Assembly: GCA_947179485.1 (NCBI GenBank) | Contig: OX359250.1 | Location: 15,792,539 to 15,856,538 of the forward strand | Length of the DNA: 64,000 bases | Direction of reading: 5' to 3' | Source of the DNA: Allacma fusca | Taxonomy: Eukaryota; Arthropoda; Collembola; Symphypleona; Sminthuridae | Shown here: piece by piece, positions 9,009 through 64,000 of the stretch | Layout of the letters: each line of letters opens with the position of its first letter | Position numbering within the stretch: the first letter of the stretch is position 1 | The notes under the pieces: generated by a model | Seen by the model: the letters and a program-made list of their open reading frames with translations, nothing else | The model's database searches: none | Told to the model about the DNA's origin: nothing | Made by a program: the position numbers and the translations under genes

Positions 9009-11273
9009 TCTGTCTGTAGTGCTGTAGCTGTAGCCCTGTGTTTAATGCACGGAGGCTTGCTGTCTGTCTGTCTGTACATTCCCCGCTACCACAACTCCTA
9101 GCAAGTGTGTGTTACTCTCACACTGTTACTGTGTGACTCTATGGGGTTAAATGAGACAACTGACAAGTGTTGTTGGACGGGGACCATAGGACAGATGTTA
9201 ACATTAATTGTCAGAGGTTTCATTTTTCAATAATTGGATGTGAAATTATTTCTAAATGTATTTTTTATATTTAGTGCATAATGAGACTGGGCCTCCCCCA
9301 GGAACACGTAAGGCAGCAAACACGTACTTAGCTCGACATCATTACATTGATTGTAGGAAACGGCGTTTCACGTCACAGATAAAAGGTTTATTTAATGCTT
9401 GCTTAATTCTAATTAATTAAAAAGGGGGAAATTGTTGTAAAAAATCAGTGAGATTTTTAACCTGTTTTGAATGAACGCTCTTACCCCAATATTAAATTCT
9501 CACAAGCGATATTACTCTTGAGGGCACCACAAGCACCCGAAAGTTAGAATTATTTTGATGGTAGGGGGCGCTTCATCAAACGCTTGTGGTTACAGTAATG
9601 TTAAGAGGCCTGTCTTGAGGTTTTCAGTATGTGAGAGTACTAATTTAGAAATATTTTGATAATACCTGGGAACATAGTGCCTGACTGCCTGAGACTATTT
9701 TGGGACTTATTTTAAGCTTTCGGAAACAATCATGTTTTGCAATTTTATTTGTCATGGAATAATCCTTCCTTAATGTCGCAAATTTTAGGCAAGACGGGTA
9801 ACCCTCAATAAAAAGATGGTGAATAATTTTAACTATTTTATTGAAGCGTTTTAATTATTCATACAGTTTGAATAATTTTTTTAAAATCTTCAACGTTCTA
9901 CGAAGACCTTACTGACAATGAATGAGGCGCACGTGCTTTAAATTAAACACAGTAAATTTTACAATCAATAATTAAATTACACCAGTAACCTCAAAATCTT
10001 AATCTTTGCATTCAAATTGTCAATTGAAATTGAAAATGTAGAAACTATTCGCCTCATCATCAATCCAGAGAGTCATGCGTGGCTTTTAGTGCACTATGGG
10101 AAAATAACAACTGCTGTTGTAGGCGTGACCCATTAAAAAGGTAATGGAATGTTTAAAATCACCAACAACACAGCCCGTTGTACCGCTCACGTAACTCCAA
10201 TAGGTGGGGACACTAACTGCCTTTAACGCTTATCGTGCATTGTTAATTTTTATTTATTTATAGGGAATAATTAGTACATTAAGGTCACACACTTTTGATT
10301 AAAAGACATAGATAAATTATGATCCTTACATTAATGATTAAACTTTGACTTAAACGTTTATAAATTTGCTGTGTATTTTTTTAGTGCACATTTTTAAATT
10401 TTGTTTTATCATAGAATCCCGCTAATTCCTAACATTTTTCAGCCCAGGAAATTTTCGAATGTGCGAAGAACCAAAATGTTCTTTGGGGAGGAGCGGGAAT
10501 ATGAACATATTTTACATGGTCCTTGTTTGGCAAAAATTTCCAACTCTTGAACTAAATGGGTAGCTAAAATTTGCAAAAATCGGCAAGTGCTTTTAAAAAA
10601 ATACACTTATTAACAATACTATTTCTGTAACTCCAAAATTTTCGGTACGGGAAGGTTATCTTAAAAATTTTCTGAACTGGATAAATTGTCTTGAAAATAG
10701 GCAAATTACTGGATTTTTTGGACATTAAATCGGATTCATGAAAAATTCCCGCTGCCCGTTCCACCGATACACATCTACCCAAGAAAGTACCCACCAGTTG
10801 TAACGCTTCATAACGGTAGTACCAAACGACAACTGACCTAATGGGTTCGTTACATATTAAATGGATGAAAATTCTACATTTTTTCAAGTTGCCTGTGGCA
10901 ACAGCGATTGGGAGTAAATTTACCTTATCGATGGACGTAATTATTCAAACTTGGCTACAACCCTACGCAACAGGAAAATTCTGATGCTACAATGGGAAAC
11001 TCACAATTAGTTACAAGTCTCGGCTATCAAGAGTATTACAAATTATTGTTTGATTGTTAGGATTTTACATTGAAGGAAAATAATATTCGCCGTATTTTAT
11101 CTTTCTTTGAGGCTACGACGATTTCAATGTATTGTATCATTATAAAATTCAGATCAGACGACAGAACATGCGATTGCTCTCGAAAATCAAAATACTTCGA
11201 GCGAGAGAGATGTTCAAATGTGGCTTGTTGCAGAAAGTACTCCTTCGGGAGGTTACTGAATGCAAACCACGAC
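9009..11273. other. Intergenic region upstream of the giant repeat gene
   Basis: A short (TGTC)n microsatellite lies at about 9061-9075. The rest is AT-rich with no conserved frame. A short frame starting MGNSQLVTSLGYQEYY at about 10991 ends at a stop after 22 codons. It could be a first exon of the downstream gene, with a myristoylation-like MGNS start, but no convincing splice was found. The promoter of the giant gene should lie here. Confidence 0.35.
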
Positions 11274-14200
11274 ATGATGATGCGTATAGGATCAGCCTAC
11301 AGTTGTAGTCAGTCCAACCACGATTTTACAGGACCAGATGATCGTCCGTTTATGAACTTCAACGGTCCATACATTCCTTTTGGGCAGAGTGTACTCAATG
11401 CACCCTTTTTCCAAAGTCAACAACGAGGAAGTGGCCAACCACAAAAACCCGGTGACTCCAGTTTGTATAACCCAGTAACAAATACTCTACGGGGACATGA
11501 ACCGCTAAATCCTTTTAATCCCAACAATTTACAAAGCAGACCGGATCAGTCTAAAACTAGAGGAGACAAGAACAACTATTTTACAGATCCTAATAATGAT
11601 AAGAATCAGTCATCTCCTTATAAAGAGCCTGGCCCTAATAATACAGTGCAAGGGAAATCAAATGCAACAGGATCATCGAGTAGACCGATAAACGGTACGC
11701 GTGTCCCGGCAACCCAAGGTGACCAATATTTATATTTACATTTACAGTAGCACGTACATTTGTGAGTTTTAGACTCATAATTGTAGATTAGACACATCTT
11801 GTCACAGGTCGGCAAGGTGCACCAACGGAGGGAGATCCACGTACGAAATATAATGGAGTAGGCCCCGGTGGCCAACACGGAACAGGTGCTGGACCCGGTG
11901 GTTCATATCAAAATGGAACTGGACCCGGAGAACAATATGGAGCTGTAACTGGTCCAGGCGGTCAATATGGACCTCAACCGGGTTACGGCCCTCAACAAAG
12001 GCCTGGATCTGGACCTGGGGGTCCTCATCAAACTGGAACAGGTCCAGGCGGTCAATATGGACCTCAACCGGGTTACGGCCCTCAACAAAGGCCTGGATCT
12101 GGAACTGGGGGTCCTCATCAAACTGGAACAGGTCCAGGCGGTCAATATGGACCTCAATCGGGTTACGGCCCTCAACAAGGGCCTGGATCTGGACCCGGGG
12201 GTCCTCATCAAACTGGAACAGGTCCAGGCGGTCAATATGGACCTCAATCGGGTTACGGCCCTCAACAAGGGCCTGGATCTGGACCCGGGGGTCCTCATCA
12301 AACTGGAACTGGTCCAGGCGGTCAATATGGACCTCAATCGGGTTACGACCCTCAACAAGGGCCTGGATCTGGACCTGGGGGTCCTCATCAAACTGGCCCC
12401 GGAGGCAAATATGGACCTGAATCCGGTTACGGCCCTCAACAAGGGCCTGGATCTAGACCCGGGGATCCTCATCAAACTGGCCCCGAAGGCAAATATGGAG
12501 ATTTAACTGGTCCAGGTGGTCAACGTGGAACTGGATCTGGACCCGGTGATCAACATGGAACTGCCATCGGTCCCGGAGGTCAATATGGTGGACCTGGGGG
12601 TCCTCATCAAACTGAAACAGGCCCTGGAGGTCAACATGGAGCTGTAACTAGTCCAGGTGGTCAATATGGACCTGAATCCGGTTACGGCCCTACACATGGG
12701 CCTGGAAATGGCCCCGGTGGTCAATATGAACCTAAATCCGGTTACGGCCCTCAACAAGGACCTGGAACTGGCCCCGGAGGTCAACATGGAGCTGTAACTG
12801 GTCCAGGTGGTCAATATGGACCTGAATCGGGTTACGGTCCTCAACAAGGGCCTGGATCTGGACCCGGGGGTCCTCATCAAACTGGAACTGGCCCCGAAGG
12901 TCAATATGGAGCAGTAACTGGTCCAGGGGGTCAATATGGACCTGAATCCGGATTCGGTATTCAACAAGGGTCTGGATCTGGACCCGGGGGTCCTCATCAA
13001 ACAGAAACTGGCCCCAAAGGTCAAAATGGAGCTCTAACTGGTCTAGGTGGTCAATATGGACCTGAATCGGGCTACGGCTCTACACGTGGCCCTGGATCTG
13101 CACCCGCGGGTTCTCATCAAATTGGAACTGGCCCCGGAGGACAATATGGAGCTGTAACTGGTCCAGGCGGTCAATATGGACCTGAATCCGGTTACGGCCC
13201 TCAACAAAGGCCTGGATCTGGACCCGGGGGTTCATATCAAACTGGAACTGGCCCCGAAGGTCAAAACGGAGCTGTAACTGGTCCGGCAGGTCAATATGGA
13301 CCTGAATCCGGTTACGGCCCTCAACAAAGGCCTGGATCTGGACCCGGGGGTTCTCATCAAACTGGAACTGGCCCCGGAGGTCAAAACGGAGCTGTAACTG
13401 GTCCAGGCGGTCAATATGGACCTGAATCCGGTTACGGCCCTCAACAAACTCCTGGATCTGGACCCGGGGGTTCTCATCAAACTGGAACTGGCCCCGGAGG
13501 TCAAAACGGAGCTGTAACTGGTCCAGGTGGTCAATATGGACCTGAATCCGGTTACGGCCCTCAACAAAGGCCTGGATCTGGACCCGGGGATCCTCATCAA
13601 ACTGGCCCCGAAGGCAAATATGGAGATTTAACTGGTCCAGGTGGTCAACGTGGAACTGGATCTGGACCCGGTGATCAACATGGAACTGCCATCGGTCCAG
13701 GAGGTCAATACGGTGGACCTGGGGGTCCTCATCAAACTGAAACTGACCCTGGAGGTCAACATGGAGCTGTAACTAGTCCAGGTGGTCAATATGGACCTGA
13801 ATCCGGTTACGGCCCTACACATGGGCCTGGAAATGGCCCCGGTGGTCAATATGAACCTAAATCCGGTTACGGCCCTCAACAAGGACCTGGAACTGGCCCC
13901 GGAGGTCAACATGGAGCTGTAACTGGTCCAGGTGGTCAATATGGACCTGAATCGGGTTACGGTCCTCAACAAGGGCCTGGATCTGGACCCGGGGGTTCTC
14001 ATCAAACTGGAACTGGACCCGGAGGTCAAAACGGAGCTGTAACTGGTCCAGGTGGTCAATATGGACCTGAATCCGGTTACGGCCCTCAACAAAGTCCTGG
14101 ATCTGGACCCGGGAGTTCTCATCAAACTGGAACTGACCCCGGAGGTCAGTATGGAGCTGTAAGTGGTCCAGGTGGTCAATATGGACCTGAATCAGGTTAC

Positions 14201-17200
14201 GGCCCTCAACAAGGGCTTGGATCTGGACCTGGGGATCCTAATCAAACTGGCCCCGGAGGCAAATATGGACCTGAATCCGGTTACGGCCCTCAACAAGGGC
14301 CTGGATCTGGACCCGGGGATCCTCATCAAACTGGCCCCGAAGGCAAATATGGAGATTTAACTGGTCCAGGTGGTCAACGTGGAACTGGATCTGGTCCCAG
14401 TGATCAACGTGGAACTGGATCTGGTCCCGGTGATCAACATGGAACTGCCACCGGGCCAGGAGGTCAATATGGTGGTGTATCTGGTCCCAGTGGTCCATAT
14501 GGATCTGGCAGTGGTCTCGATAGTCAATATGGGTATGGAACAGGACCCGATGGTCGAATTGCAGCTGGATCGGCTCCAAGTGGTCAGAATGGAGCAGGTA
14601 CACGTTCCGGTGGTCAATATGGAGCAGGCACAGGTCCTGATGGAGTAAATAGGCCTGGCGTGGGTCCCGGTGGCCAATATATATCTGGCCCCGGTGGACA
14701 ATACGTAGAAGGGACATATTCCGATGATCAAAATAGGACTGGCGTAGGTCCCGGTGGACAATATGAATCGGGCCTCGGAGGTCAATATGGAACTGGCGTT
14801 CATCCCGATAGTAAATATGGAGCTGGCCCTGGAGGACAAAATGGAGCTGGATCAGCTACCGGTGAACAGAGAGGTGGAAAAGGTCCCGATAGTCAAAATA
14901 TGCCTGGCGCAGGTCCTGGCGGTCAAAATGGATCTGGCGTAGGTCCCGGCGGTCAATATGGAAATATTCCCGGTGGTCAATATGCAACTAGTCCCGGTGG
15001 TCAATATGGAAATATTCCCGGTGGTCAATATGCAACTAATCCCGGTGGTGAATATGCAACTAGTCCTGGGGGTCAATACGGTGCAGGAACGGGTACAGAT
15101 AGTCAAAATAGGTCTGGCGTAGGTCCTGGTGGTCAATACGGTTCTGACCTGGATGGTCAAAATAGGCCTGGTCTAGGTCCCGGTAGTCAATATAGACCAG
15201 AAGAAGGTCCCGATGGTCAAAATAGTACTGGTGTAGGTCACGGGGGTCAATATAGAGTTGGTACAGGTCCCAGTGGACAATATCAGGCTGGATCCGAAGG
15301 TCAATATGCATTTGGCGAAGGTCCCGGTGGTCAAAATGGAGTTGCAACCGGTCCCGGTGGTCAACAGAGAGTAGGAACAGGTCCCGACGGTCAAAATATG
15401 CCTGGCGTAGGTCCCGGTGGTCAACATGAAGTTGGCAAAGATTCCAGTAGTCAAAATAGGACTGGAGTAGGTCCTGGTGGCCAATATGGATCTGGCCCCG
15501 GGGGTCAAAATGGAGTTGGCGTAGGTCCCGGTGGTCAACATGGAGCAGAAACAGCTCCCGATAGTCAAAGTAGGCCTGGGGTTGGTCCCGGTGCTCAACA
15601 TGGAGCAGGAAAAGGTGCTGATGGTCATTATGGAGAAGGGACACGCGCCGATGGTCAACGTCGGTCTGGCGGTGGTGAATATAGAAATCGCCCCGATGGT
15701 CAATATGGAACTCTCCCCGATGGTCGATTTGCTCCTGGCCCCGATGATCAATATGGTGCTGGTGTGGGTGTCGGTGGTCAATATAGAACTAGCCGCGATG
15801 GTCAACGTGGAACTCGTCCCAATGGTCAACATGCTCCTGGCCCCGATGGTCAAAATGGAGCTGGAACCGGGCCCGTTGGCCAGCATGGAGCAGCAACAGG
15901 TCCCAGTCAAAGTAGGCCTGGCGCAGTTCCCGGTGGTCAATATGGATCTGTCCCAGATGGTAATGCTGGAGTTGGCACAGGACAGAGTGGTCAATACGGA
16001 GCAGGACCAGGTGTTGATGGTCAAGGTCAACCTGGCGTAGGTCCGGGGGTTGAATATGGAGCTGGCAATCATCCTGACAGTCAATATATAGATGGAACAG
16101 GTCCCAATTATCAAAGTTGGCCTGGCGTAGGTCCAGGCGGTCAGTATGGACTTCGACCCGATGGTGAACACGGGTCTGGCGCAGGTCTCGGTGGTGTAAA
16201 CGGAGTTGGCACAGATCCTAGTGGTCAATATGGAGCTGGAACAGGTCCCAATGGTCAAAGTTGGCCTGGCATAGGTCCAGGTGGTCAGTATGGACTTCAT
16301 TCCGATGGTGAACACGGATCTGGCGCAGGTCCCGGTGGTGTAAACAGAGTTGGCACAGATCCTAGTGGTCAATATGGAGCTGGAACAGGACCTAATGGTC
16401 AAAGTTGGCCTGGCGTAGGTCCAGGCGGTCAGTATGAAGTTGGTCCCGATGGTAAACACGGATCTGGCGCAGGTCCCGGTGGTGTAAACGGAGTTGGCAC
16501 AGATCCTAGTGGTCAATTTGGAGCAGCAACTGGTCACGATGGTCAAAGTAGGCCTGGCGTAGGTCCCGGTGGTCAAAATGGAGCTGGTGCGTATCCCGAT
16601 AGTAAATATGGAGCTGGAACAGGTCCTAATGGTCAAAGTTGGCCTGGCGTAGGTCCAGGCGGTCAGTATGGAGTTGGTCCCGATGGTAAACACGGATCTG
16701 GCGCAGGTCCCGGTGGTGTAAACGGAGTTGGCACAGATCCTAGTGGTCAATTTGGAGCAGCAATTGGTCACGATGGTCAAAGTAGGCATGGCGTAGGTCC
16801 CGGTGGTCAAAATGGAGCTGGTGCGTATCCCGATAGTAAATATGGAGCTGGAACAGGTCCTAATGGTCAAAGTTGGCCTGGCGTAGGTCCAGGCGGTCAG
16901 TATGGAGTTGGTCCCGATGGTAAACAAGGATCTGGCGCAGGTCCCGGTGGTGTAAACGGAGTTGGCACAGATCCTAGTGGTCAATTTGGAGCAGCAACTG
17001 GTCACGATGGTCAAAGGGGGCCTGGCGTAGATCCCGGTGGTCAAAATGGAGCTGGTGCGTATCCCGATAGTAAATATGGAGCTGGAACAGGTCCTAATGG
17101 TCAAAGTTGGCCTAGCGTAGGTCCAGGCGGTCAGTATGGAGTTGGTCCCGATGGTAAACAAGGATCTGGCGCAGGTCCCGGTGGTGTAAACGGAGTTGGC

Positions 17201-20200
17201 ACAGATCCTAGTGGTCAATTTGGAGCAGCAACTAGTCACGATGGTCAAAGTAGGCATGGCGTAGGTCCCGGTGGTCAAAATGGAGCTGGTGCGTATCCCG
17301 ATAGTAAATATGGAGCTGGAACAGGTCCTAATGGTCAAAGTTGGCCTAGCGTAGGTCCAGGCGGTCAGTATGGAGTTGGTCCCGATGGCAAACAAGGATC
17401 TGGCGCAGGTCCCGGTGGTGTAAACGGAGTTGGCACAGATCCTAGTGGTCAATTTGGAGCAACAACTGGTCACGATGGTCAAAGGGGGCCTGGCGTAGAT
17501 CCCGGTGGTCAATATGGAGCCGGACCTTGGGGACCAAATGGAACTATAACCGGTCCCGGCGGTCAACATGGGGCACAAACAGGTCCCGATGGTCAAAGGG
17601 GGCCTGGCGTAGGTCCCGGTGGTCAATATGGAGCCGAACCTTGGGGACCAAATGGAACTATAACCGGTCCCGGTGGTCAACATGGGGCACAAACAGGTCC
17701 CGATGGTCAAATGTGGCCTGGCGTAGGTCCCGGTGGTCAACATGGAGCACAAACAGGTCCCGATGGTCAAATGGGGCCTGGCGTAGGTCCCGGGGGTCAA
17801 AAGGAAGCTGGTGCATATCACGATAGTCAATATGGAGCCGGCCCTTGGGGTCCAAATGCAGTTATAACCGGTCCCGGTGGTCAACATGGAGCAGAAAAAG
17901 GTCCCGGTGGTCAAAGTAGGCCTGGCGTAGGTCCCGCTGGTCAAATTGGAGCTGGTGCGTATCGCGATAGTCAATATGGAGCCGGCCCTTGGGGTCCAAA
18001 TGCAGCTATAACCGGTCCCGGTGGTCAAAATGGAGCTGGTGCGTATCCCGATAGTCAATATGGAGCCGGCCCTTGGGGACCAAATGGAACTATAACCGGT
18101 CCCGATGGTAAACATGAAGCAGAAACAGGTCCCGATGGTCAAAGTAGGCTTGGCGTAGGTCCTGCTGGACAAATTGGAGCTGGTGCGTATCCCGATAGTC
18201 AATATGGCGCCGGCGCTGGGGGTCCAATCGGAGCTATAACCGGTCCCGGTGGTCAACATGGAGCACAAACAGGTCCCGATGGTCAAAGTAGGCATGGTGT
18301 AGGTCCTGCTGGACAAATTGGAGCTGGTGCGTATCCCGATAGTCAATATGGTGCCGGCGCTGGGGGTCCAATCGGAGTTATAGCCGGTCCCGGTGGTCAA
18401 CATGGAGCACAAACAGGTCCCGATGGTCAAAGTAGGCGGGGTGTAGGTCCCGCTGGTCAACATGGAGTACAAACAGGTCCCGATGGTCAAAGTAGGCCTG
18501 GCGTAGGTCCCGGTGGTCAAAATGTAGCTGGCGCGTATCCCGATAGTCAATATGGCGCCGGCCCTGGTGTTCCAAATGGACCTATATCCGGTCCCGGTGG
18601 TAACCATGGGGCACAAATAGGTCCCGATGGTCGAAATAGGCCTGGCGTAGGTCCCGGTGGTCAACAAGGATATGGCCCCGATTATAATACCGGAGTTGTC
18701 ACCGGTTCCGGAGGTCAATATGGAGCCGGCCCAGCGGAACAAACTGTAGCTGGTAAAGGTCCCGATAGTGAAAATAGACCTGGCGCAGGTCCCGGTGGTC
18801 AATATGGAGCTGGGCCCGATGGCCAATTCGGATATGGTGTAGGTCCCGATGGCCAATATATATCTGGTCAATATGGTGCCGGTGCTGGGGGTCCAATCGG
18901 AGCTATAGCCGGTCCCGGTGGTCAACATGGAGCACAAACAGGTCCCGATGGTCAAAGTAGGCAGGGCGCAGGTCCCGGTGGTCAAAATGGAGCTGGCCCA
19001 GATGGGAATCCTGGAGTTGTCACAGGATCCGTAGATCAATATGGAGCCGGCCCAGCGGGACAAATTGTAACTGGTAAAGGTCCCGATAATCAAAATATGC
19101 CTGGCGCAGGACCCGATGGTCAATATGGAGCTGGGCGCGATGGCCAATTTGGATATTGTGTAGTTGCCGATGGTCAAAATAGACCTCTCGTAGGTCCCAG
19201 TGGTCAATATGGATCTGGTCCAGATGGGAATACTGGAGTTGTCACAGGATCCGGAGGTCAATATGGAGCCGGCCCAGCGGGACAAAATGTAGCTGGTAAA
19301 GGTCCCGATAGTCAAAATAGACCTGGCGCAGGTCCCGGTGGTCAATATGGAGCTGGGCCCGATGGCCAATTCGGATATGGTGTAGGTCCCGATGGCCAAT
19401 ATATATCTGGCCATGATGGTCAAAATAGACCTCTCGTAGGTCCCGGTGGTCAATACGGATCTGGTCCAGATGGGAATACTGGAGTTGTCACAGGATCCGG
19501 AGGTCAATATGGAGCTGGCCCCGCGGGGCAAAATATGGCTGGTAAAGCTCACGATAGTCAAAATATGCCTGGCTCAGGTCCCGGTGGTCAATATGTGGCT
19601 GGGCCCGATGGTCAATATGGATCTGGCATAGGTCCTGGTGGTCAATATGGAGCTGGCCCCGGTAGTCATGATGGAATTGGAACAGGTCCTGATGGACCAA
19701 TTAGGCCTGGCGTCGGTCCGGTTGGTCAGTATGGGACTGGAGCTCATCCCGATAGTCAATATGCATCTGGCCCCGATGGTCAATATGGAGCTGAAACGGG
19801 TCCCGGTGGTCAAGTTGGAGCCGGCACTGGTCCTGATGGTCAATATGGAGCAGGCATTCGTCCCGGTGGTCAGTATGGAGTAGGCGCTGGTCCTGGTGGT
19901 CAATATGGAGTAGGCGCTGGTCCTGGTGGTCAATATGGAACAATCGCAGGTCCTGGTGGTCAATATGCAGCAATCCCAGGTGCTGGTGGTCAATATGGAG
20001 CAGGCACAGGTCCCGTTGGTCAACTTGGCACTGGCCCCGATATGCAAAATAGGCCTGTCGTTGTTCCCAGTGGTGAATATGGAGCTAGCCCTGGTTCCGA
20101 TAGTAAATATGGGACTGGCCCCGATGGTCAATATGCTGCTGTCGTGGGTCGCGGTAGTCAACATGGAGCAGGAAAAGGTCCCGATGGTCTTTATGGAGAA

Positions 20201-23200
20201 GGGACACGTTCCGATGGTCAAGGTCGCTCTAGCCAAGTTCCGGGTGGTCATTATGCTGCTGGCGTGGGTCCCGGTGGTCAATATGGAACTGGCCCCGAGG
20301 GTCATAGTAGGCCTGGCGTTGTTCCCGGCAGTGAATATGGAGCTGTCCCTGGTGCCGATAGTAAATATGGAACAGACCCCGATCGTCAAACTGGAGCTGG
20401 AACTGGTCCCGTTGGTCAAGTTGGAGCTGACAGTGGTCCCGGTGGTGAATATGTAGCAGGCGCAGGTTCTGGTGGTCAACTTGGAGCAGGCGCAGGTCCC
20501 GGTGGTCAACTTGGAGCAGGTGCAGGTCCCGGTGGTCAACTTGGAGCAGGTGCAGGTCCCGGTGGTCAACTTGGAGTAGACGCTGGTCCTGGTGGTCAAT
20601 ATGGAGCAATCGCAGGTCCCGGTGGTCAATATGGAGCAATCGCAGGTCCCGGTGGTCAATATGGAGCAGGCGCAGGTTCTGGTGGTCAATATGGAGCAGG
20701 CGCAGGACCCGGTGGTCAACTTGGAGTAGGCGCTGGTCCTGGCGGTCAATATGGAGCCATCGCAGGTCCCGGTGGTCAATATGGAGCAAGCGCTGGTCCC
20801 GGTGGAATATATGGAGCAGGCGCAGGTTCTGGTGGTCAATATGGAATTGGCGCTGGTCCTGGTGGTCAATATGGAGCAATCGCAGGTCCCGGTGGTCAAC
20901 TTGGAGCAGGCGCAGGTCCCGGTGGTAAACTTGGAGTAATCGCTGGTCCTGGTGGTCAGTATGGAGCAATGGCAGGTCCCGGTGGTCAATATGGAGCAAG
21001 CGCAGGACCCGGTGGTCAACTTGGAGTAGGCGCTGGTCCTGGTGGTCAATATGGAGCAATCGCAGGTCCCGATGGTCAATATGGTGCAGGCGCAGGTCCC
21101 GGTGGTCAATATGGAGCAGGCACAGGTCCCGATGGTCAATATCTAGCAGACATGGGTCCCTATGGTCAATATGGAATTGGCGCTGGTCCAGGTGGTCAGA
21201 ATACACCTGGCGTAGGTCCCGATGGTCAATTTATAGGTAGCTGTCACACCAATACTCTATATGGTTCTAGCCCGGGTGCTATCATTTTTGGATGCGATAC
21301 ATTTCTATTACATTAACAAATGACTTTAGTACGGGAAGTCGGCCTAATAATTAGACCTTTGCTTTGTTATTTAAATCTTAAAGTATATATGTTGTATTCC
21401 AGGCAGAGTAGGTGCGGATAAACGGAAAGATCTGGGGAGAACAGATCTTCTTGACCCTCGTGAAATAGGGACAAAATTTTCATATGGACAAGGGCAAACA
21501 GGTCCTGGATTTCCGGTCGGGCCTGGTTATAAAGGGGTTGAATTTCTTGATGGGCCACAAAGTGCTGGATTTTCAAGCGGTCCTCGTCCAGGAGGGGCTG
21601 GATTTCCAGATGGGAATGATCAAGAAGACAGTGGAACTAAAACTGGAGTTGACAGAAAACCCAGCAAACTAGGTACACCGAAAGGCAAGCGTAAAGGTAT
21701 GAAAATGTATAAAAATGTCATGTAATGATAAGAATGACAACTAATGCATCTAGCTAACAACTAATGACGTAAAAATTATTTGATGTCAGGAGATGCTGGT
21801 GGAGCCAATAATAATGAAGGAACTTCAACAGATGGGGGAAACAGCAAAGGTAATCGTTTTAGTAACAACGGGGTGCCCTCAACCAAAAAGGGCACACCTG
21901 GAAAACAGGGTCCCTTTTCTGGGGATCTACAACGAACGAATTACAATGCATCTAGGAAAGGTGAACTATATTTTATAAACGTTTTATCTTTTGGAAATCC
22001 TTCAATCAAACTTAAACAATTGAAAAACCATTCCAGGAATACCAGACTTAAAAAGAAAACCATCTTTGGGCCGAAATTCTGTATCAAGTGATAAATCTAA
22101 ACTCGACTTTTGTGACAACTTGCCAGGATACTTCTCAATGACGCCAGATCGAAAGAAAAAGTCAGGTGCAGCTCGAACCCAGTTTCAGTCTCCATTCTCC
22201 GTCATTTACCCCAGTTCTGGAGAATGTCCCCCCGGAACGGTTCGGACGAAAGATGGCTTTTTTGCAATTCCAAAAAGCAAACCACGCAGCAAATTAGACA
22301 ATATCAGAAACTCCAATCAAAATTGTGATGAATTTACTTCCACTAAAAAGAAAAACATCTGTGACAGTGGTACTCAAGTTCTGTGTGTTCCAACCAAAAA
22401 GTCTTTCCAAAAGGGTAAAACCAGTGTAACAGATAGAAAATTGATACGGGCCGGAATTTCTCAAAAACCCCAACTAAGAAAGTCAAAGGATACCAAGTTG
22501 ATGGATGAATTAAAAAATGAGGCACTCAGACACCGTACTTTAGAAACACGGCACTGTTTTCAGCCGAGACCTATGAGCAAGAGAAAGGGATGTACAGGGG
22601 TCAGTACTGAATCCGTTAATGAACTTATGGACTTCAATTTAGCAACTTTACCCATGTCCGAAGAATCTTTCCAACGGTTGAGATCATATTTAGATAAGTA
22701 TCTTAGAGACTATGCCAAACTTTTGACGGAAGTTAGAGAGCAAGATGTTCTGCGGTTGTGCTCCGTTCCGTACAGAAGGAAAGAATATCTGAGTGAACCA
22801 CCCAGAGAGTTCTATCCCGTGGCCTCCTCATCCCAAGGATATGGGTACTCTCCGAATAATTCAATTTGTGATAATCGGAGTACTTACCCATGCCAAACAC
22901 AATCATGTGTGGCTACAACTTCTTCCTCTGGTTGTTCCAAATGCCCTAACCAATATGCTGCGTACAGAATTTTCTCCGTAGACAAAGTTGTTCTGAATAA
23001 CTCCCCCACCTTGTCAGACTGGAATGTTGGTAAAGATGATAAAAATGATTCGACCAATGAGGAATTCGATCGTGCGGGAGAAATGACATTGAAAGCATTG
23101 CAATTCAGTCGACTAAAATGTTCAAATCCTCAAAGGACCAAAGAGAGCTTGCTCCTTCAACTGAATAGAATTACTGGAGAATTTGAAGAGGGTATAGATC

Positions 23201-26551: not shown

Positions 26552-28084
26552 TGGTGGTATTCAGGTTGCTACACTCCCACTCAAATCCGCACTCAACTCA
26601 CAAATTTTTGAGTGGGAGTGACGTTTTGGTATTCAGGTTGAGTTTTCTCAACCTCCACTCAGTAAGTGCACTCCCGTTAGTGAGTGACACATTAAGTCAC
26701 CAATTTGGTCACTAGATTCTCCACTCGCCTGAAGTTACATATGTACATGCGTCAATTGAGACTTATTTAAAATAAAGGTGCAGCAAAGGAGCATAACCTA
26801 TCAGCGATTTGAACGCCTCCAAAAGTTTAAAAATCTGTTTAAACTGAACCTCAGGAATTTAAAAGATTTATCAAATCCCTTCGAACTCTTCAGTGACAAT
26901 TTATTTCGGGAGAGATTTCGATTTAGTAAAACCTTATAAGTGCCGCATTCCTGTTACCAATTGTCAAAACTCAGTTACTATCATCTAACGGTGGACATGT
27001 TCCAATTATTTTTCAGATACTTGTCGCATTAAGATTTTTGGCCACTGGGTCATTTCAATCAGTAATAATTGCGGACACAGTTTTCATTTCTCAACCATCC
27101 GTTCCCCGAATCATATTCACAATACCAAATACATCAAATCTCACTTCTCTACCTCGAGATATCTCACGCACAACATGCCCTTCCAGTATATCCGCTTGTT
27201 TGCCAACATCAGGCTTAACTCTCCGACCTTATATACCACCAGAGTTAAGTTCAAACTCTCCTTCCCCAACCATTGCATTGACTGTAATCTCCAGGAACCG
27301 GATAATCTCGTACATCTCCTAACCAGGTGTAGTTTATACAACCTACCTAGACGTTCGATACTAGGAAAATATAATATTAGTGAATATAATTCTGAAATTC
27401 CTCTTCTTGCACTCTTTAGAGACCCCTCCAAAGATTTTATGTGTGATATTTTTAAGTATGTCTACAATTCTACTATTAGGAGTAATCTCCTTTTTTATTT
27501 ATCAAGTTAATAATAATGTATGGATGATATGGGCGCCGCCCGAAAAGAATCCTTGAACCAATAAATAATAATAATAATAATAATATTCACAATACATATT
27601 TACAATTGTGGGTTGAAGGGTGGGAGTTGAATTCTATTGCCAATTTTTTCCATACCTTTTCTTTGGCGTCGTTGAAAACTATTGGTTTTTTGTTTTCAAT
27701 AACGTGTTGAGGGGATTTCACAAAGGAAATTAAAAATCCTCGTTCGGATGTACCTAAAGGAGGAACTTGTCCAGAATTTGATGTTTTTGGGGAGAATTAT
27801 TGTAAGTTGTTTGTGTCATTTTGTGTGTGAAAATTACAATAATAAATTGTCTTCTGCTTTGAATGAAATTGTTTAAATGAATTTTTCATTAATGCCGGTA
27901 ACTACTTATACATAATTACTTCAGATCCCAACTGTAAGGGCTCACTCACATGAGTGCTGGTTTTATTTTTGAGTGGTGGAAACTTGTATTCCATTGCCAC
28001 TAGTACTCACACTCATTCTCTGACTCACACTCAAGCTAGTTCTAGTGTTAGTGTGAGTATTTAAATGTAACTTGAATACCACCG
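26552..28084 (+). mobile_element. PIF/Harbinger-derived element, copy B (inverted)
   Basis: This is a second copy of the same family in opposite orientation, separated from copy A by 45 bp. The ends are GGTGGTATTCAGG at the left and TTGAATACCACC at the right, with a TTA target duplication at 26549-26551 and 28085-28087. The transposase remnant LATGSFQSVI..FISQPSVPRI is readable at about 27037-27115, where it is interrupted by a retrotransposon fragment. Removing that fragment gives an element of about 1.06 kb, matching copy A. Confidence 0.85.
27126..27582 (+). mobile_element. 5'-truncated non-LTR retrotransposon in copy B
   Basis: The insertion is flanked by a perfect 13-bp duplication ATATTCACAATAC (27113-27125 and 27583-27595). 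Copy A shows the corresponding empty site. The open frame through 27510 encodes the end of a LINE-type ORF2: FANIRLNSPTLYTTRV, then the C-x2-C-x8-H-x4-C finger in CIDCNLQEPDNLVHLLTRC. It is followed by about 70 bp of 3' UTR and an (ATA)n tail, as in Jockey/I/R1-like elements. Only the last ~130 codons of ORF2 are present, so the copy is dead on arrival. Confidence 0.88.
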
Positions 28085-52931: not shown

Positions 52932-52933
52932 AG

Positions 52934-53050
52934 CCCGATCGAAAATCACATGCATAATTATGCACAAGTTTTATCCCGCCAGATTCATGCATACATAATT
53001 ATGTTCACAATGTACAGATAGTTGTATGCATAAATGTTGTGCATAATATT
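52934..53050. repeat. Left terminal and subterminal repeats of the transposon
   Basis: CCCGATCGAAAATC is followed by several palindromic words: ATGCATAATTATGCAC, CATGCATACATAATTATG and TGTATGCATAAATG...GTGCATAAT. These are candidate transposase binding sites. Confidence 0.75.
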
Positions 53051-53405
53051 GTATACACAATTCAAAACTAAAACAAATCTTAAATCAAATCGGCTAATAC
53101 ATATCCATGTACATATACGGTTATGTATTTCTACTAAATTGAGCCTATTATTTATTACATATTATCATGTAGTATGCTATTATAAGATATTTTTTCTTCG
53201 ATCCTTGCAGATAATTTTCATTTCATGTATGCTTATTGTATTTTTATAATTTCGATATTCCAAAATATGTTCATGTAGTAATAATGAGTCGAAACAGTGA
53301 CAATATGTACAACTAGAAGCTATATTTTATTGACATTTGTGCTGCATAATTTTTACACAATAAATACCAATATGCAAATGCACTGCTTAACAACTTAAAC
53401 CCCGT

Positions 53406-56400
53406 TTATTCACATTCTTCTGTATTTGGAAGGACAATAATCTGCTCTAAAATATTACTATTTACATTGGAGTAGCAACAGAAACTTTCAATGCAATTAC
53501 CTGGTATTATTTTTATACGATTTTCCAAAGTCACATTGAACAAATTATTGGAATGTCGTACTGGTAGGTTTGTCTTTAATTTAGAACATACTAAAAAACA
53601 GCATTTTACATTCGTTGAAAACACAACAAGCAAAATAGATTTAACTATGAAGAATTTATACTTAAATTTAATTATACATTTGCATCGCTTTGCTGTTATT
53701 CCTGTTTGAGTTCCTATGTGGACATTATTTACATAAGCTCTTTTAAATGATTCACATGTCATAATCACATCGAAATATCCAAGACGTTGAATCATTTCCA
53801 CCTCGTCATGATTCAAAATACATTTCTCGGAAGACCCTAGCAATAAGCAACCAAAGGTATCTAATATGTACTTGTCAAGTTTCTTTTGGTGGCATATCAA
53901 GACTTCATAAAACGATAAAGCACATGGATTTGAAAATATTTTTGTTCCTTCAGTAACAGCATAAATGTTTTCAATTACTTTCTTGCTAATTTGGGATTCA
54001 ATTCTGAAAGAGGCGTTAAAATACTTAAGAAGGACTCCATTAAAATTTTCAAAATTAAATAAGGAGTAATTCCAGAGTGGACCCCAATCTTCCACACATT
54101 TTGTCGCGTGTGTTAATAGGTGAATATTAAATGAGCAAAACGATTTTCCATATAGTCCTTCCACGTCATCTACAAACGCTTTGATCATTGCTCTAGTTGG
54201 TAAAATGTCTATAACGTATACACGCGTGCTACACAAATTGAAAATGCTTTGAACAAACTTCATAAAATGTGAATAGTAGGCGTATGGTAAAATATCCCGA
54301 AGAATTGCAGGAGCTAAAAATGTCCACATTCGCCATTCACTGGATTTCCAGTGTTTTCGTTCATCTAAGCCACGAATGGTTCTATCCGAGTTCTGTGGTA
54401 CCTTCCAGGTTTTTAAACGAGAGTTTAAAATGTCCAACTTGTTTCCTATGTAGAAAGGTCGGTCATGATATTTTGAATTCAACCACGAATTAGTTAATGT
54501 TCGAGCCACTCCTAACTCCACTGTATGCATGTAATCTACCACAAAACCGGAAACAATGTCAAAATTTTTCAGCATTAACAGAGCACTTGCTTCTTTAATC
54601 CCCTTGTAACTTTTTAAGGCCCGATTTGTTTGCAACAGCTCCCGAAATTTTCGGACATGACCCAAAAAGTTTTCATGTGTCCTCGGCTCAGCTACGTGAT
54701 TACAATAAATCCATTTGTGAGATTTTTCTGTCTCCCAATATGTCTCCCCTCGAACCAGACACCATGGACAGCCAAAATTTCCATTAAACTGGTTAATGCC
54801 TTGAAGGGAACAGCGTGCGACAGAATCTGCAGCAAGTATAGGGAACAAAATGTGGCTTGAAATTACATTTTCATCTTTCTTCCAATTCACGCAGGTTGTG
54901 GACAGTTCATTAAACATTTTTATTATCGGTGGTAAATACGTGCGAAAGATGGGCTTTTCACTGCCAAACCACAAAGCCGCGGTCAGTGTATGTTTTCGTC
55001 TGAGAGGATACGTTAATTCATTTATGGATACCAGGAATGGATAAATTGACATTTTTGACGATTTGAAGCAAGGAACCCCATCACAGTTCATTGTTGCCGT
55101 AAGGTCATGTTCTCCTAGGGTTAAACGCTTGTACATTTTCCCGTCGTATATGTTTTCAAAATAAGTGGACTCTTCCGATGCTTTCTCGGCCCTTGCTTGC
55201 ATGTTTTTCCATACATTTGATGCTACATCCTTTTGCTTTAGTATGTCTTCAAAAATTGTTTTCAAGTCAAACAATACAAAACAGTTACCCGAATCCAAAT
55301 TTTGAAAATCACATGAGCTGCATAATCTTGAATCTTCTTGAAGCAATGTATTGCATTTGGAGCAGTAGTATATATACTGTTTTACTTCGTAGTCTATGTG
55401 CAATCGCTTTTGCAGCAAATATTTTGAAGAAGGGAAATCGGTTCCGGGAACAAAAAAACGTAAAAGGTCCAGCAAGTCCTGCACAGCAGTATTTGACAGC
55501 CTGTGCTTTAATATAAATGCGAAGACCAAGAAACATCCTTCTTGGACGGTTAGATTGGCATTAATACATGAAGTTCCCTATTGTAAAACAATTCAAAATT
55601 AATAAAAAAAAATCTTCGTTGACAAGAACATTGCATAAAATAAATAAATATTTTTAAGAAATTAGGTACAGTGGGAACATCCAAAACTCAACATTAACTG
55701 AATTTACATTACATCAATTATCAAGGCAAGTAAAAAATGTTAATAATTTAGTGCTATGACAACAATGTTAGTAATTATCAACCAGGAGATACCTTTACAT
55801 CCGATACACTTTACAATTCATGTCGTTCAGTTTAAAATTTATTATTGGCTCACCATTTCATTTGCAAAATTATGGTTTTCCTCAAGTAAATCAGGTGCAC
55901 TTTCATCATCATTCCTATAAATATTGGAAACCAATTCCTCGTTCAACTCGTCACTAGATGATACTGAATATTCGGATTCCATCTAAACGTAAAAACAAAA
56001 CCAATTTATATAATACTGTTTGAATTCTGATTGAAAAGTTTTATTTGAAAATTAATTCGGGGAAATGTCATTATGTTGAACATTTAAGAAAACATTTGCT
56101 GTAGTGCATTTCAAATTGACTGATGGTTTGCAAGTATTTGTTTTAACTACTTTCTAGGAACTGAAAATGACGAGTATTTTTATTGCCTCATAATCCGGAG
56201 CAACATCAACTTCTACAATTTGATTAATTCCAACGGGTGTTATTGGCATTTGATTCTCTTCCATGACTGCACATTTCCGTCTCTAAAATAAATTAAAATA
56301 ATTAAACCCATATTTTAAACAAATATTGACACTTTTCGGAACAGCTGAACATGAATATATACTTAATAAATAATAAGACATGTTTTACCTTCCGATTGAA

Positions 56401-56475
56401 TTTCGTTTGTCTTGGAACACGAACAACTTGCAGAGTTGGAATTTCTAAGTATTTTTTATACCTACCCCTGCCCAT
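53406..56475 (-). CDS. Tnp2/DUF4218-like transposase
   Basis: This is a predicted nuclear DDE-type transposase. The main exon 55577-53406 is open to the stop. It is preceded in phase 0 by 55982-55854 (MESEYSVSSSDELNEELV), and probably by 56285 onward (RRKCAVMEENQMPITPVG) and 56475-56389 (MGRGRYKKYLEIPTLQVV). The start is therefore either 56475 or 55982, and the link between exons 2 and 3 is weak. Motifs: zinc-ribbon CSKCNTLLQEDSRLCSSC, then MNCDGVPCFKSSKMSIYPFL and HTLTAALWFGSEKP of the Tnp2 core, GCPWCLVRGETYWE, then a DUF4218-like block, FNIHLLTHATKCVEDWGPLW followed by FNFENFNGVL. No frameshift or internal stop occurs in 724 codons, so it may be active. It diverges from the BEN gene within one element. 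Confidence 0.85.
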
Positions 56476-56827
56476 TTTTATAAACGTGGTATGCAATTTA
56501 AGTGCGCTATAATTAATAAATATCTATAATTACTTGCAACTTCAAATTAAGTGTCTTGGGGGTGGTCAAACGATCGGATTATTTTCAAGTATTTTAATTT
56601 CAGCAATCAAGTGCTGTTTGATTTTACAAGTTTGTAATCAATTTTGCCGCCCGCGCCATACCAGACCACATGAGTTACTAGCCCCACAGCATTCTTTGTT
56701 TTACTGGACAACGATTTCCGCCCACGATCATCCAGGGAAACAAAAGCTAGGCGGTCTGTATGTAATTTCTTCACATTTCATTCAATAAAATTTGAAGATT
56801 AGGTAGTGCACTTCAAAATTAGGCAAA

Positions 56828-58331
56828 ATGAGTTTTTCACCTTTCTTTTTGGTTTTTTGGAAAGATGAGGACAGATACTCCTGTGTTAGTCGATCCAATA
56901 TTGTAAATTTTTCCCTTCGCAAGGAAACCGATGAAAACCTATTAACTCTGAAGTACGTCGAAATTAATTTCAATCGGAAAGTTTATAGTGGAACACTAGT
57001 GTATGCAGGTAATTTCAAGTGTATTTTGTACGCTTTGTATTTATGTATATTTTAAAATATGTATTTCAAAATGGTTGTAATCATACAAAATACCGATACG
57101 TTTTTTAATTATAATTTTCAGGGCGGACGCGACAAGATGTTAATGCACATTCCAAAGTATTGGAAAACGGCAACGTACAAAAGAATTCGAACAACGAAGA
57201 AGAACATCATCAACCTGTAAGAATCTAGCATTTCTTTGCTCAGTAATTCTAAATTTAAAAACTCAACAATTAGTGAAATTGAACAAGTTGCTAGTTTAAA
57301 TTTAACGTTTTTCAGGATTTCCAGAACCGTAGGCAAACAGCTCTGGGATCTCAGATTGATCATATATTGCAGTCGATTGAGAATGCTGAGTCAACCTCCG
57401 TCAACAGTTCCACCACTCCTGACAACAATGATGAGGATGGCATGTCTATTAGCGTGGTAGAAACTACGTCTGTTTCCGCAAATGCTGAAAAACAATACCA
57501 GCAAATTGAGAAGTTGCGGCGAAAACTGTCAAAAGCGAAGGCGAAAATAAAACTTCTGGAAGAGAGTCTGGACGAGGAACGGAAATTGCGTGATAAGTAC
57601 AAACGTATGATTATATTTATGAATTTCGGTTTAAAATTTTGTATTTACAAGTGCATAATCATGAAAACATTTAAGTAGCTAAATTTTCGGTGTGCATATT
57701 GTATTGATTTTAGACAAGTCCAAGAATCTTCAGCAAAAGATTCAAAAATTTCAGGAGGAAAAATCGGTGAGGTTACTAGTTTTAGTAAAAATAAACTTCC
57801 ACTACTGATAATTGAAACTACAGCAGCTTTTTGTAAAAATTTGTTCATTAATTCAGTATTCATTTCATTGCAGACAATGATCGATATTGGTAATGGAGTT
57901 ATGCTGAATGCAGCTGTCTTGGAGCGAGCAGCGTTATTTTTTCCCTCTCCATCCATTTTGGGCCGAAACATTTTTCGCCTAGTATTTAAGGATTCGGAAA
58001 TTGCAGGAACATCTCTTACTGGTCGCTCATGTAATGCAAATAAAAATTTGCCTGCTAAACCGGCTTTGGATGCAGTGAGGCTGGACGCTGTTATAAGTAT
58101 GTACATATGGAAATGATTATATTTGAGGGTGTTACAAAAAATAATGACAATCTTCACTTTTTTATAGATTACTGCTTGTCGACTCTTGGAGAATCTTCCA
58201 AAGGATCTGGATTGAAATTTGACAGAGCAGCCATCCGCTTCAAAATCGTAAAATCTTTGGGCGAGTACATTAGGGAGGTCAGTCGTAAGCAAAACCAAAT
58301 GCCCGGATTTAACACTGAGGAACTAGAATGA
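56828..58331 (+). CDS. BEN-domain protein carried by the transposon
   Basis: BEN domains bind DNA or chromatin proteins and occur in BANP, NAC1, BEND proteins and some viral proteins. Six exons (56828-57008, 57122-57216, 57316-57604, 57714-57766, 57874-58096, 58168-58331) keep frame and give 334 residues. Residues 1-60 form an unrecognised N-terminal module (FWKDEDRYSCVSRSNIVNFS). Residues about 150-205 form a Lys/Glu-rich coiled coil (QQIEKLRRKLSKAKAKIKLL). The C-terminal 130 residues carry the BEN pattern: MIDIGNGVMLNAAVLERA, RNIFRLVFKDSEIAGTSLTG, LPAKPALDAVRLDAVINYCL, AAIRFKIVKSLGEYIREVSR. It is transcribed away from the transposase, and the ~350-bp gap between them could be a shared promoter. 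It may bind the transposon ends or host chromatin; that is inference. Confidence 0.88.
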
Positions 58332-58400
58332 AGTACATGTACTTTGATTTTTGATACAATGATGTAATGTCGGTAAATGATTTGGCAAGCATTTTTCTGA

Positions 58401-58406
58401 AATAAA
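58401..58406 (+). terminator. Polyadenylation signal of the BEN gene
   Basis: AATAAA lies 70 bp after the BEN stop codon at 58331 and inside the transposon, followed by TG- and T-rich sequence. Confidence 0.6.
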
Positions 58407-58549
58407 TCTGAAAAAATTAAATTAATTTCTTCTATTTTCGGATATCATTGTATCGTCACTTCACTCGTATTATTGTCAAGAAATTAGAAGATTCCAGTAA
58501 TGTATAAAAGGAAGTAAGGCACACTAAATTATTATTATTCGTGCATAGT

Positions 58550-58685
58550 GTACACACAATTAATTATGCATAATCCGGGCATAATGAAGTATGCACGCCA
58601 AAGCGTCCCAAAAGTATGCACGAAATGGCTGGCCAATTATGCATAGCTGTGCGTGCATAATTATGTTGCGAGATTTTCGATCGGG
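58550..58685. repeat. Right terminal and subterminal repeats of the transposon
   Basis: Words AATTATGCATAAT, GAAGTATGCACG, AAGTATGCACGAA, AATTATGCATAG and GTGCATAATTATG precede the terminal GATTTTCGATCGGG. The arrangement mirrors the left end and supports a single element. Confidence 0.75.
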
Positions 58686-58999
58686 AGGTAGATCCTCTGC
58701 TTTTGTTGTCAACCTGCGAATTCGAATTAGCTTAATCCAGGTCAACTTATGAATCTTAAAATAGCCAATTTTATTGTTCATTCAATTCATTCCCATTGAT
58801 AAAAGCAAATTTAAAATTGACCTCAGAAATTATATTGTTGATAAGCATTGATCCAATGACCTCAATTCTACCGCATTCTAAATTGTAAGATGTCGAATGA
58901 CCTCTTTTTGATCTTACATGTTCTCTGACGTCTGCCCATAATATTAATTCGGTGTAAATAAAACTTAGTTTGTCCCATCGCCGGCTCCTAATGGCCATT

Positions 59000-59445
59000 C
59001 TGGTGTCATATGACTATTAGTGACCCAATAAAGTCAACCTTAAGTGACTGACTACTTGTGACTCACTAAGTTTCATTTTAGGTCACGTGTCTCACTATAT
59101 GATCATGTGACTCCTAACTGACCTTATTGGGTATAAGGTCAGTTTGGGGTCATGTAACTATTAGGGACCCAATAAGGTCAGTTTGGGGTCATGTGACTAC
59201 TAGTGACGCAATGAGGTCAATTTACTAGTTGAATGACTACTGGTACCCCACACAAATACGACAGTTGACAGTTACTTGACCCAAGTTTGGAGTCCAGTAA
59301 TAACGTTATGATATAAGTAATCAGTGACCCAAAATTAACCTTACTGTGCTGTGTCACTAATAGTCACATGACCCCAAATTGACCTTATTGTGTCTCTAAT
59401 CTCTAATAGTCACAATCTCAGACTGACCGGCACAAGACTCACTAT
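59000..59445. repeat. Direct and inverted GGTCA..GTGAC repeat cluster
   Basis: Units built on TGACTATTAGTGACCCAATA and GGTCAGTTTGGGGTCATGTG occur at about 59010, 59110, 59160 and 59200. They recur inverted at about 59330-59390 (CACTAATAGTCACATGACCC). It reads like a fold-back element. The ends were not fixed. Confidence 0.65.
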
Positions 59446-63351: not shown

Positions 63352-64000
63352 GGGTTGTACTACGATAAGTGTCCCAAAGTTGAACTTTCCGAACTACGAT
63401 ATGTGTCCCCGAACTACGATAAGTGTCCCAACTTTCCGAACTACGATATGTGTCCCCGAACTACGATAAGTGGCCCCGAACTACGATAAGGACGCCTGAA
63501 GATGTGCTCAGGTTCAAGGTTAGACATGTGCTCGGGTTCAAGGTTATAAATTCCGGTTATACTACGATAACTGTCCCAAAACTCGAAAGATCCGGTTTAC
63601 GATAACTGTCCCCGAATTACAATAACTGTGTCAAGTTCCGAATTACGATAATTGTCCCAAGTTCCGAATGAGCAATTCGGCGTACTTGGCACGTAGTGCC
63701 AAGTTAATGGCTGAAACTCTTATTTGCATTTCTAATTACATTTATTTCAATAAACATTCCCACAACAACTTATAACTGCAATACGGACTCAATTATTTTG
63801 CTATTTCTACTCCTTCTCAACCATATCGTACCCCCAGGTGTGGATTCTGTGTGGTAGTCGTTGAGGACAGTGAGGGTTAGGTTAGTTTAGGCTGGAAAGG
63901 GGTGCCGTGACTATGATGGCCCCGAAGGGGCCTTCACAGTCACATTGGCATATCGTAGTTCGGAAAGTTCAACTTTGGGACAGTTATCGTAGTTGCCCCC
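63352..64000. mobile_element. Inverted-repeat element reaching the window end
   Basis: The block ACTACGATAAGTGTCCC, then AAAGTTGAACTTTCCGAAC, at 63359-63400 recurs as the inverted complement at 63954-63998, giving terminal repeats of about 45 bp. Inside the left end, the motif GAACTACGATAAGTGTCCCC is repeated in tandem with variants at about 63411, 63436, 63457 and 63475, and in weaker form to about 63660. No coding frame is present. The terminal G-rich run (GGGTTGTA at the left, GGGGGCAA in reverse at the right) suggests the right end lies at or just beyond position 64000. The superfamily could not be assigned. Confidence 0.65.

Follow-up and report, generated by a model that had tools for sequence, protein, structure and literature searches.

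We analysed a 64,000-nt stretch of the Allacma fusca genome (contig OX359250.1, positions 15,792,539 to 15,856,538), hereafter the window, which lies on contig C9 of the 393-Mb host sequence (91 contigs) that was searched for related copies. Positions 52934-58685 of the window hold a complete DNA transposon of 5,752 bp. It is filled by a divergent pair of multi-exon genes, both with their frames open, one for a transposase and the other for a putative BEN-type protein. An earlier note on this DNA had described perfect 14-bp terminal inverted repeats (TIRs), inverted subterminal blocks and two intact divergent multi-exon genes, and all three are borne out: the TIRs are exact at 52934-52947 and 58672-58685 (CCCGATCGAAAATC and its reverse complement), CATAATTATG cores lie within 52952-52963, 52993-53004 and 58655-58666, and the genes splice to open frames of 334 (plus strand) and 827 amino acids (minus strand). 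The features, including the flanking target-site duplications (TSDs), are as follows.

52932-52933, no strand: left TSD, AG, from the sequence and from a paralogous empty site at C1:1.10 Mb with a single AG
52934-52947, plus strand: left TIR, CCCGATCGAAAATC, the transposase-side end, exact against the right end
52948-53060, no strand: left subterminal region with GCATAA/TTATGC repeats
52951-52964, no strand: left subterminal 14-bp palindrome TGCATAATTATGCA, its core CATAATTATG within 52952-52963
52993-53004, no strand: second left CATAATTATG palindrome
53406-56475, minus strand: transposase gene, 827 amino acids, 4 exons (56475-56389, 56282-56187, 55982-55854, 55577-53406), splice model
56476-56827, no strand: region between the start codons, 352 bp, a presumed bidirectional promoter
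56828-58331, plus strand: BEN gene, 334 amino acids, 6 exons (56828-57008, 57122-57216, 57316-57604, 57714-57766, 57874-58096, 58168-58331), splice model
58560-58671, no strand: right subterminal region with GCATAA/TTATGC repeats
58655-58666, no strand: right subterminal palindrome with the CATAATTATG core
58672-58685, minus strand: right TIR, the BEN-side end, exact reverse complement of CCCGATCGAAAATC
58686-58687, no strand: right TSD, AG, from the sequence and the empty-site comparison

The element is a genuine DNA transposon of the cut-and-paste type that has moved recently. It is present at full length at four genome places, with 100% (the window copy), 100, 98 and 95% identity; an interrupted copy occupies C8:19081489-19094172, and two copies at C12:9.83 Mb and C1:23.9 Mb are about 73% alike over the main matched piece. 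The window copy differs from that at C1:39065515 by 13 mismatches over 5,752 positions, which therefore indicates recent movement. Both frames are open in the window copy; the four further copies with at least 95% identity all have a transposase exon disrupted by a stop or break. A 2-bp TSD flanks 7 of the 8 copies compared at both ends (AG in the window, then AT, CA, AT, AT, TT and TT; chance about 1e-7).

Joined with a single AG, the flanks of the window copy match an old host repeat, and 34 of 38 other rows of this repeat span the junction by their coordinates. One of four rows compared by letters, at C1:1.10 Mb, is ungapped over the junction and has AG once; that at C12:55.7 Mb is also ungapped but has TG there, and two C8 paralogues show a 4-base gap, which in the BLAST alignment stands two bases to the right of the junction and in the MAFFT alignment falls across it. 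The relative L045, whose transposase is about 55% identical, also lies inside a repeat; judged from coordinates alone, 36 of the 41 other rows of that repeat extend across the L045 junction by at least 10 bases on each side. Two of the checks proposed by the earlier note came out in its favor: further full-length copies with the same gene pair exist, 50 of 61 transposase loci being BEN-paired, and comparison with the empty site gives a 2-bp duplication, AG.

A scan of the window for the terminal 14-mer, with two mismatches allowed, gave 3 matches against 0.45 expected by chance, and the genome contains 20 exact matches. The reading of all 20 as transposon ends was rejected. The same unrelated sequence lies inward of the 14-mer in 9 of them, and the outer flanks are also alike in 7 of those 9, the 7 whose outer flanks were compared; these 9 matches are therefore coincidental and belong to an unrelated interspersed repeat that carries CCCGATCGAAAATC (L043:1001-3221, with L039, L042, L044 and L046-L049). 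In L039 the coincidental 14-mer stands in an outward-facing palindromic arrangement. Separately, C1:79.61-80.12 Mb contains three repeated places, each with a BEN-side element end and a 69%-identical BEN exon about 30-32 kb off, an arrangement that suggests an old split copy duplicated together with its surroundings.

Transposase and BEN proteins

Most of the transposase is coded by one 723-codon exon. The donor of exon 2 has several in-frame options, of which 56187 was adopted, and this junction is accordingly provisional. In the 723-residue exon product, D166, D251, C270-x2-C273, H486-x3-H490 and E510, residues chosen by reading of the alignment, are invariant in 9 aligned sequences. The D-D-C(2)C-H(3)H-E set corresponds to the C(2)C/H(3-4)H motifs given for the CMC/CMCT group in the available part of PMC12730594, and by these motifs the window protein is a predicted CMC-type DDE transposase. 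Weak Pfam matches mark its N-terminal part as zinc-ribbon-like.

The label of Tnp2/DUF4218 given by the earlier note stands through relatives and not through the window protein, which has no Pfam match to Tnp2, Transposase_21 (PF02992) or DUF4218. A genome search with the transposase exon, in which the best 62 of 1,237 candidates were scored, returned 64 rows, which fall at 61 loci. Weak DUF4218 matches below the Pfam cut-off come from two relatives whose identity to the window transposase is about 55-56%, and 3 of the 61 loci pass the Transposase_21 cut-off. Of these three, the loci C1:6788481 and C9:40912452 have a BEN partner and share 39% identity with the window transposase over about 690-710 amino acids.

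In the second protein, a coiled-coil-like stretch separates an N-terminal domain from a BEN-like domain at the C terminus. We call its gene BEN because four transposase-paired homologues (C8:30152424, C10:41382464, C8:33031253 and C10:10344240) exceed the cut-off of the BEN model PF10523; through them the window protein would be of BEN type, with the fold predicted. Genome-wide, 14 of 30 PF10523 matches are above the cut-off, 4 of them beside scored transposases and 2 more beside Transposase_21 matches. Three results weigh against this identification. The window protein itself reaches 17.8-19.1 bits (E 0.0015-0.0038) against a cut-off of 23.2; the corresponding proteins of the relatives L050 and L045 have no BEN match in Pfam at E<=1; and a profile made from the BEN alignment and compared with solved structures found no BEN structure and returned weak ribosomal-protein and coiled-coil matches.

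A splice search that took the window protein as its guide gave products of 338 and 319 amino acids for the BEN genes of L050 and L045, with six exons each, and exons 4 and 5 measure 53 and 223 nt in both as well as in the window element. The BEN protein is kept at 61% and 43% identity in two other families.

Pairing and shared divergence of the two genes

The genome search with the BEN protein, in which the best 120 of 269 candidates were scored, gave 131 exon matches, and one or two rows per locus were taken from these to define BEN loci; exon rows at C1:79.61, 79.86 and 80.09 Mb, none of them near a listed transposase, were left out of the count. At 50 of the 61 best-scoring transposase loci a BEN homologue is found no more than 9.5 kb away, and all 50 pairs are head-to-head. 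With 82 BEN loci in 393 Mb, a BEN locus that near would be expected by chance at about 0.4% of loci. The pairing persists down to 36% transposase identity to the window, and Pfam models alone reveal further head-to-head pairs at C1:4.217/4.220 Mb and C8:31.353/31.361 Mb. As the best candidates alone were scored, these counts describe the loci most like that of the window. Scans of viral contigs and prokaryote genome contigs found no relatives.

As a control we used DUF4806, which is termed a BEN subtype in the available part of PMC11075544. None of 104 DUF4806 matches starts within 10 kb of the 61 transposase loci, and the pairing as a generic effect of abundance was rejected on this ground. 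Some of the 104 exon matches have identical scores, as if they were repeated copies, and DUF4806 copies may belong to other mobile elements.

Because the head-to-head pair recurs in many related transposons, the BEN gene looks like a long-standing functional component of it. With L050 as the comparison, the transposase has an omega of 0.129 (756 codons) and BEN one of 0.128 (305 codons), values that are rough because dS, about 1.6-1.8, is near saturation; judged from them, both genes are under equal purifying selection. Omega among near-identical copies is noisier, and some stretches of the interrupted copy give values over 1; the per-domain N-terminal omega of L010 and L012 was not used, being inflated by overlapping matches into introns. 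Identity to the window pair falls in parallel for both proteins (rho 0.84 over 48 pairs, with 77 BEN-domain rows used; 0.81 within the 23 nearer pairs). The proposal of the earlier note that BEN is a second transposon protein is thus supported by its retention in related families, by purifying selection equal to that on the transposase and by its position beside transposases down to 36% identity.

Subterminal palindrome and possible roles of the BEN protein

Some 20 bp in from the ends lies the conserved palindrome TGCATAATTATG(CA), whose conservation is stricter on the transposase side. There the CATAATTATG core starts 20 bp from the end; 7 of 8 copies have it unchanged, and the interrupted copy departs from it by one base. 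On the BEN side, where the core starts 21 bp in and the copy at C8:19.09 Mb is left out of the count, 4 of 7 copies (window, L011, L050 and L051) match it exactly. GCATAA/TTATGC occurs 9 times in the terminal 500 bp of the window element, 9 times in L045 and 8 times in L050, against 6, 0 and 2 times in the interiors (terminal enrichment over the three families, Fisher 4e-21). The block CCCGNNNNNAAATNNNNTGCATAATTATG has 30 genome matches against 0 for a reversed control pattern; it is found at 23 of 27 transposase loci with at least 48% identity, just 3′ of the transposase gene and facing inward, and at 0 of 34 more distant loci, and 7 blocks have no scored transposase nearby. In contrast, the 352-bp region between the genes aligns poorly between families, and no conserved motif was seen in this alignment by eye. 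As the end block and core are conserved while the inter-gene region is poorly so, the palindrome is, by sequence comparison, a kept signal, subfamily-specific and strictest at the transposase end.

The sequence comparisons show the mobility of the element, its gene pair, the selection on both genes and the conserved end motif; we infer binding, dimerization, end bridging and transposase recruitment by the BEN protein. The element is probably a two-component animal CACTA (TRC) transposon with BEN as its subterminal DNA-binding partner. That the BEN protein binds the TGCATA subterminal motifs is plausible, and it is most likely a TnpA-like binder whose coiled-coil dimers would bridge the ends. 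The protein would pair through its coiled coil, and each TGCATAATTATG palindrome, some 20 bp in from either end, would be occupied by one dimer, as would weaker GCATAA sites further in; its multimers would then keep the two ends joined and bring in the transposase, which would cut at the CCC ends and join the element to a target with a 2-bp stagger. This role is the job of TnpA in maize En/Spm.

There is a precedent in Insensitive (Insv), a BEN protein of Drosophila with a coiled coil: it binds CCAATTGG in the form of a BEN dimer and needs a dimerizing segment beside BEN, and its multimers may link sites (PMC6317261). Plant CACTA elements need both TnpA and TnpD, and TnpD stabilizes TnpA on DNA (DeMarco 2006, PMC1636069).

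Several observations count against BEN as the partner that reads the ends. The BEN-side core is one base off in 3 of the 7 copies (L010, L012 and L045). The distribution of the CCCGNNNNNAAATNNNNTGCATAATTATG block tracks transposase and BEN divergence equally, the two proteins diverging together, and either of them may read the palindrome. Of the 14 PF10523 matches above the cut-off, 8 are near neither listed transposases nor Transposase_21 matches. The identity correlation vanishes within the 25 distant pairs, whose identity range is narrow (rho 0.01). There is no BEN match within 9.5 kb at 11 of the 61 transposase loci and no scored transposase within 9.5 kb at 32 of the 82 BEN loci, which is not proof of an absent partner because the best candidates alone were scored. 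To these may be added, on the side of mobility, the copy at C8:34387424, the one of the 8 compared at both ends that has no TSD.

It is possible, though distinctly less probable, that BEN acts elsewhere, as a chromatin tether, in target choice or as a regulator of the central promoter, and that the transposase alone binds the subterminal repeats. BEN proteins are chromatin and insulator factors in the available part of PMC6317261, the start codons stand head-to-head 352 bp apart, and the transposase could itself bind the palindromes via its zinc-ribbon-like part, which likewise speaks against BEN as the reader. On the other hand, conservation lies in the terminal palindrome and not in the region between the genes. 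Too few insertions were compared to judge target choice.

An anti-silencing or self-regulating function of BEN, like that of TnpA or that proposed for TET/JBP of fungal transposons, is unlikely as its main role, although it is compatible with BEN as the subterminal partner. TnpA switches the methylated Spm promoter back on and represses it when it is active (DeMarco 2006, PMC1636069), TET/JBP genes are carried by fungal CMCT elements (PMC12730594), and BANP and BEND3 favor unmethylated CpG DNA (PMC11472053). The terminal repeat CCCGATCG contains two CpGs, but the conserved palindrome contains none. Finally, it is highly improbable that BEN is a host gene or passenger trapped by chance, as the numerous BEN and DUF4806 sequences in the genome might suggest: we rejected this in the main because of the 50 of 61 pairings, always head-to-head, and the retention of the protein in two other families (61% and 43%) and its selection equal to that on the transposase also stand against it.

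Other features of the window lie apart from these genes. A long silk-like open frame (3,174 amino acids stop to stop, 11792-21316) with GPGGQYG-type repeats falls within 11061-21316, a stretch of nested tandem repeats with periods of 24-378 bp and raised GC. Short tandem repeats occur in the right flank of the transposon at 59133-59223 (39 bp) and 63383-63490 (20/47 bp). A 173-amino-acid open frame at 26989-27510 resembles by eye the tail of a non-long-terminal-repeat retrotransposon and has no Pfam match at E<=0.001. In the genome, (TTAGG)n telomere arrays, which fit an arthropod, are present at 2 of 11 contig ends examined.

Relation to known transposons and BEN proteins

The ends of the element, CCCGATCG, have no CACTA core and its TSD is 2 bp, whereas plant CACTA/EnSpm elements have a CACTA core in the TIR and a 3-bp TSD. 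The earlier note had suggested that these ends, not being CACTA, may mark a distinct family. CCC ends and 2-bp duplications are, however, reported for the animal CACTA-related TRC elements in the available part of DeMarco 2006 (PMC1636069), and the distinct family is not needed because the ends, the TSDs and the transposase type all match that lineage: the TIRs start with CCC, and the 2-bp TSD is seen in 7 of 8 copies and at the empty sites. On these grounds we place the element with the animal CACTA (TRC) transposons, as a putative two-component member of the cut-and-paste type.

TRC elements (SmTRC1 of Schistosoma, and those of Aedes and Tribolium) share the CCC ends, 2-bp TSDs and a Transposase_21-type transposase, and are also alike in their size of 4.5-9.2 kb and in having more than one protein product (PMC1636069). 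SmTRC1 differs in that its extra proteins arise by alternative splicing and in that the parts outside Transposase_21 are reported as not detectably conserved; the word BEN has a count of 0 in the available text (PMC1636069). The CACTA element Spongebob (Hydra copy EnSpm-4N1_HM), a TRC member of 5.8 kb, has the same CCC ends and 2-bp TSD, but its transposase is unreadable from stops or frameshifts, and the available part of the paper does not mention a second gene (PMC4298943). No BEN partner of CACTA elements was found in the literature searched, partly seen and with Repbase and most subscription journals outside it, so that a prior description is possible. The TRC-type ends are not new; the unusual part is the BEN second gene.

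Fungal Plavaka, ESTA and TET-carrying EnSpm elements likewise contain an accessory gene besides their CMCT transposase, and PlavakaA has 2-bp TSDs. Their accessory gene is a dioxygenase, and their ends differ (TGT..ACA in PlavakaA, CATCA..TGATG in PlavakaB and CAC..GTG in EnSpm), as given in the available part of PMC12730594.

Among host proteins, Insv likewise combines a coiled coil and a BEN domain; it dimerizes on an AATT-centred palindrome and multimerizes (PMC6317261, available part). It differs as a host insulator/repressor gene outside transposons with another recognition sequence. We consider it a rather unlikely but consequential idea that BEN is the ancestral accessory protein of a large animal CACTA clade and that some host BEN-solo insulators and repressors of the Insv/Elba type are domesticated copies. 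If true, the palindrome-binding, multimerizing and end-bridging behavior of these insulators would descend from transposon end synapsis. Some of the numerous BEN genes in this genome would be accounted for by the pair, which also suggests a possible ancestry of BEN chromatin factors.

In maize En/Spm, whose ends are CACTA, TnpA binds the subterminal repeats and is not known to contain a BEN domain. The two-protein plan is the same, a CMC transposase (TnpD) with a DNA-binding partner (TnpA), although En/Spm expresses both from one transcription unit with alternative splicing (PMC1636069, available part). The literature searched, seen in part, names no equivalent of TnpA in animal CACTA elements; the fixed transposase-BEN pair together with the conserved palindrome near the ends is a concrete candidate for one.

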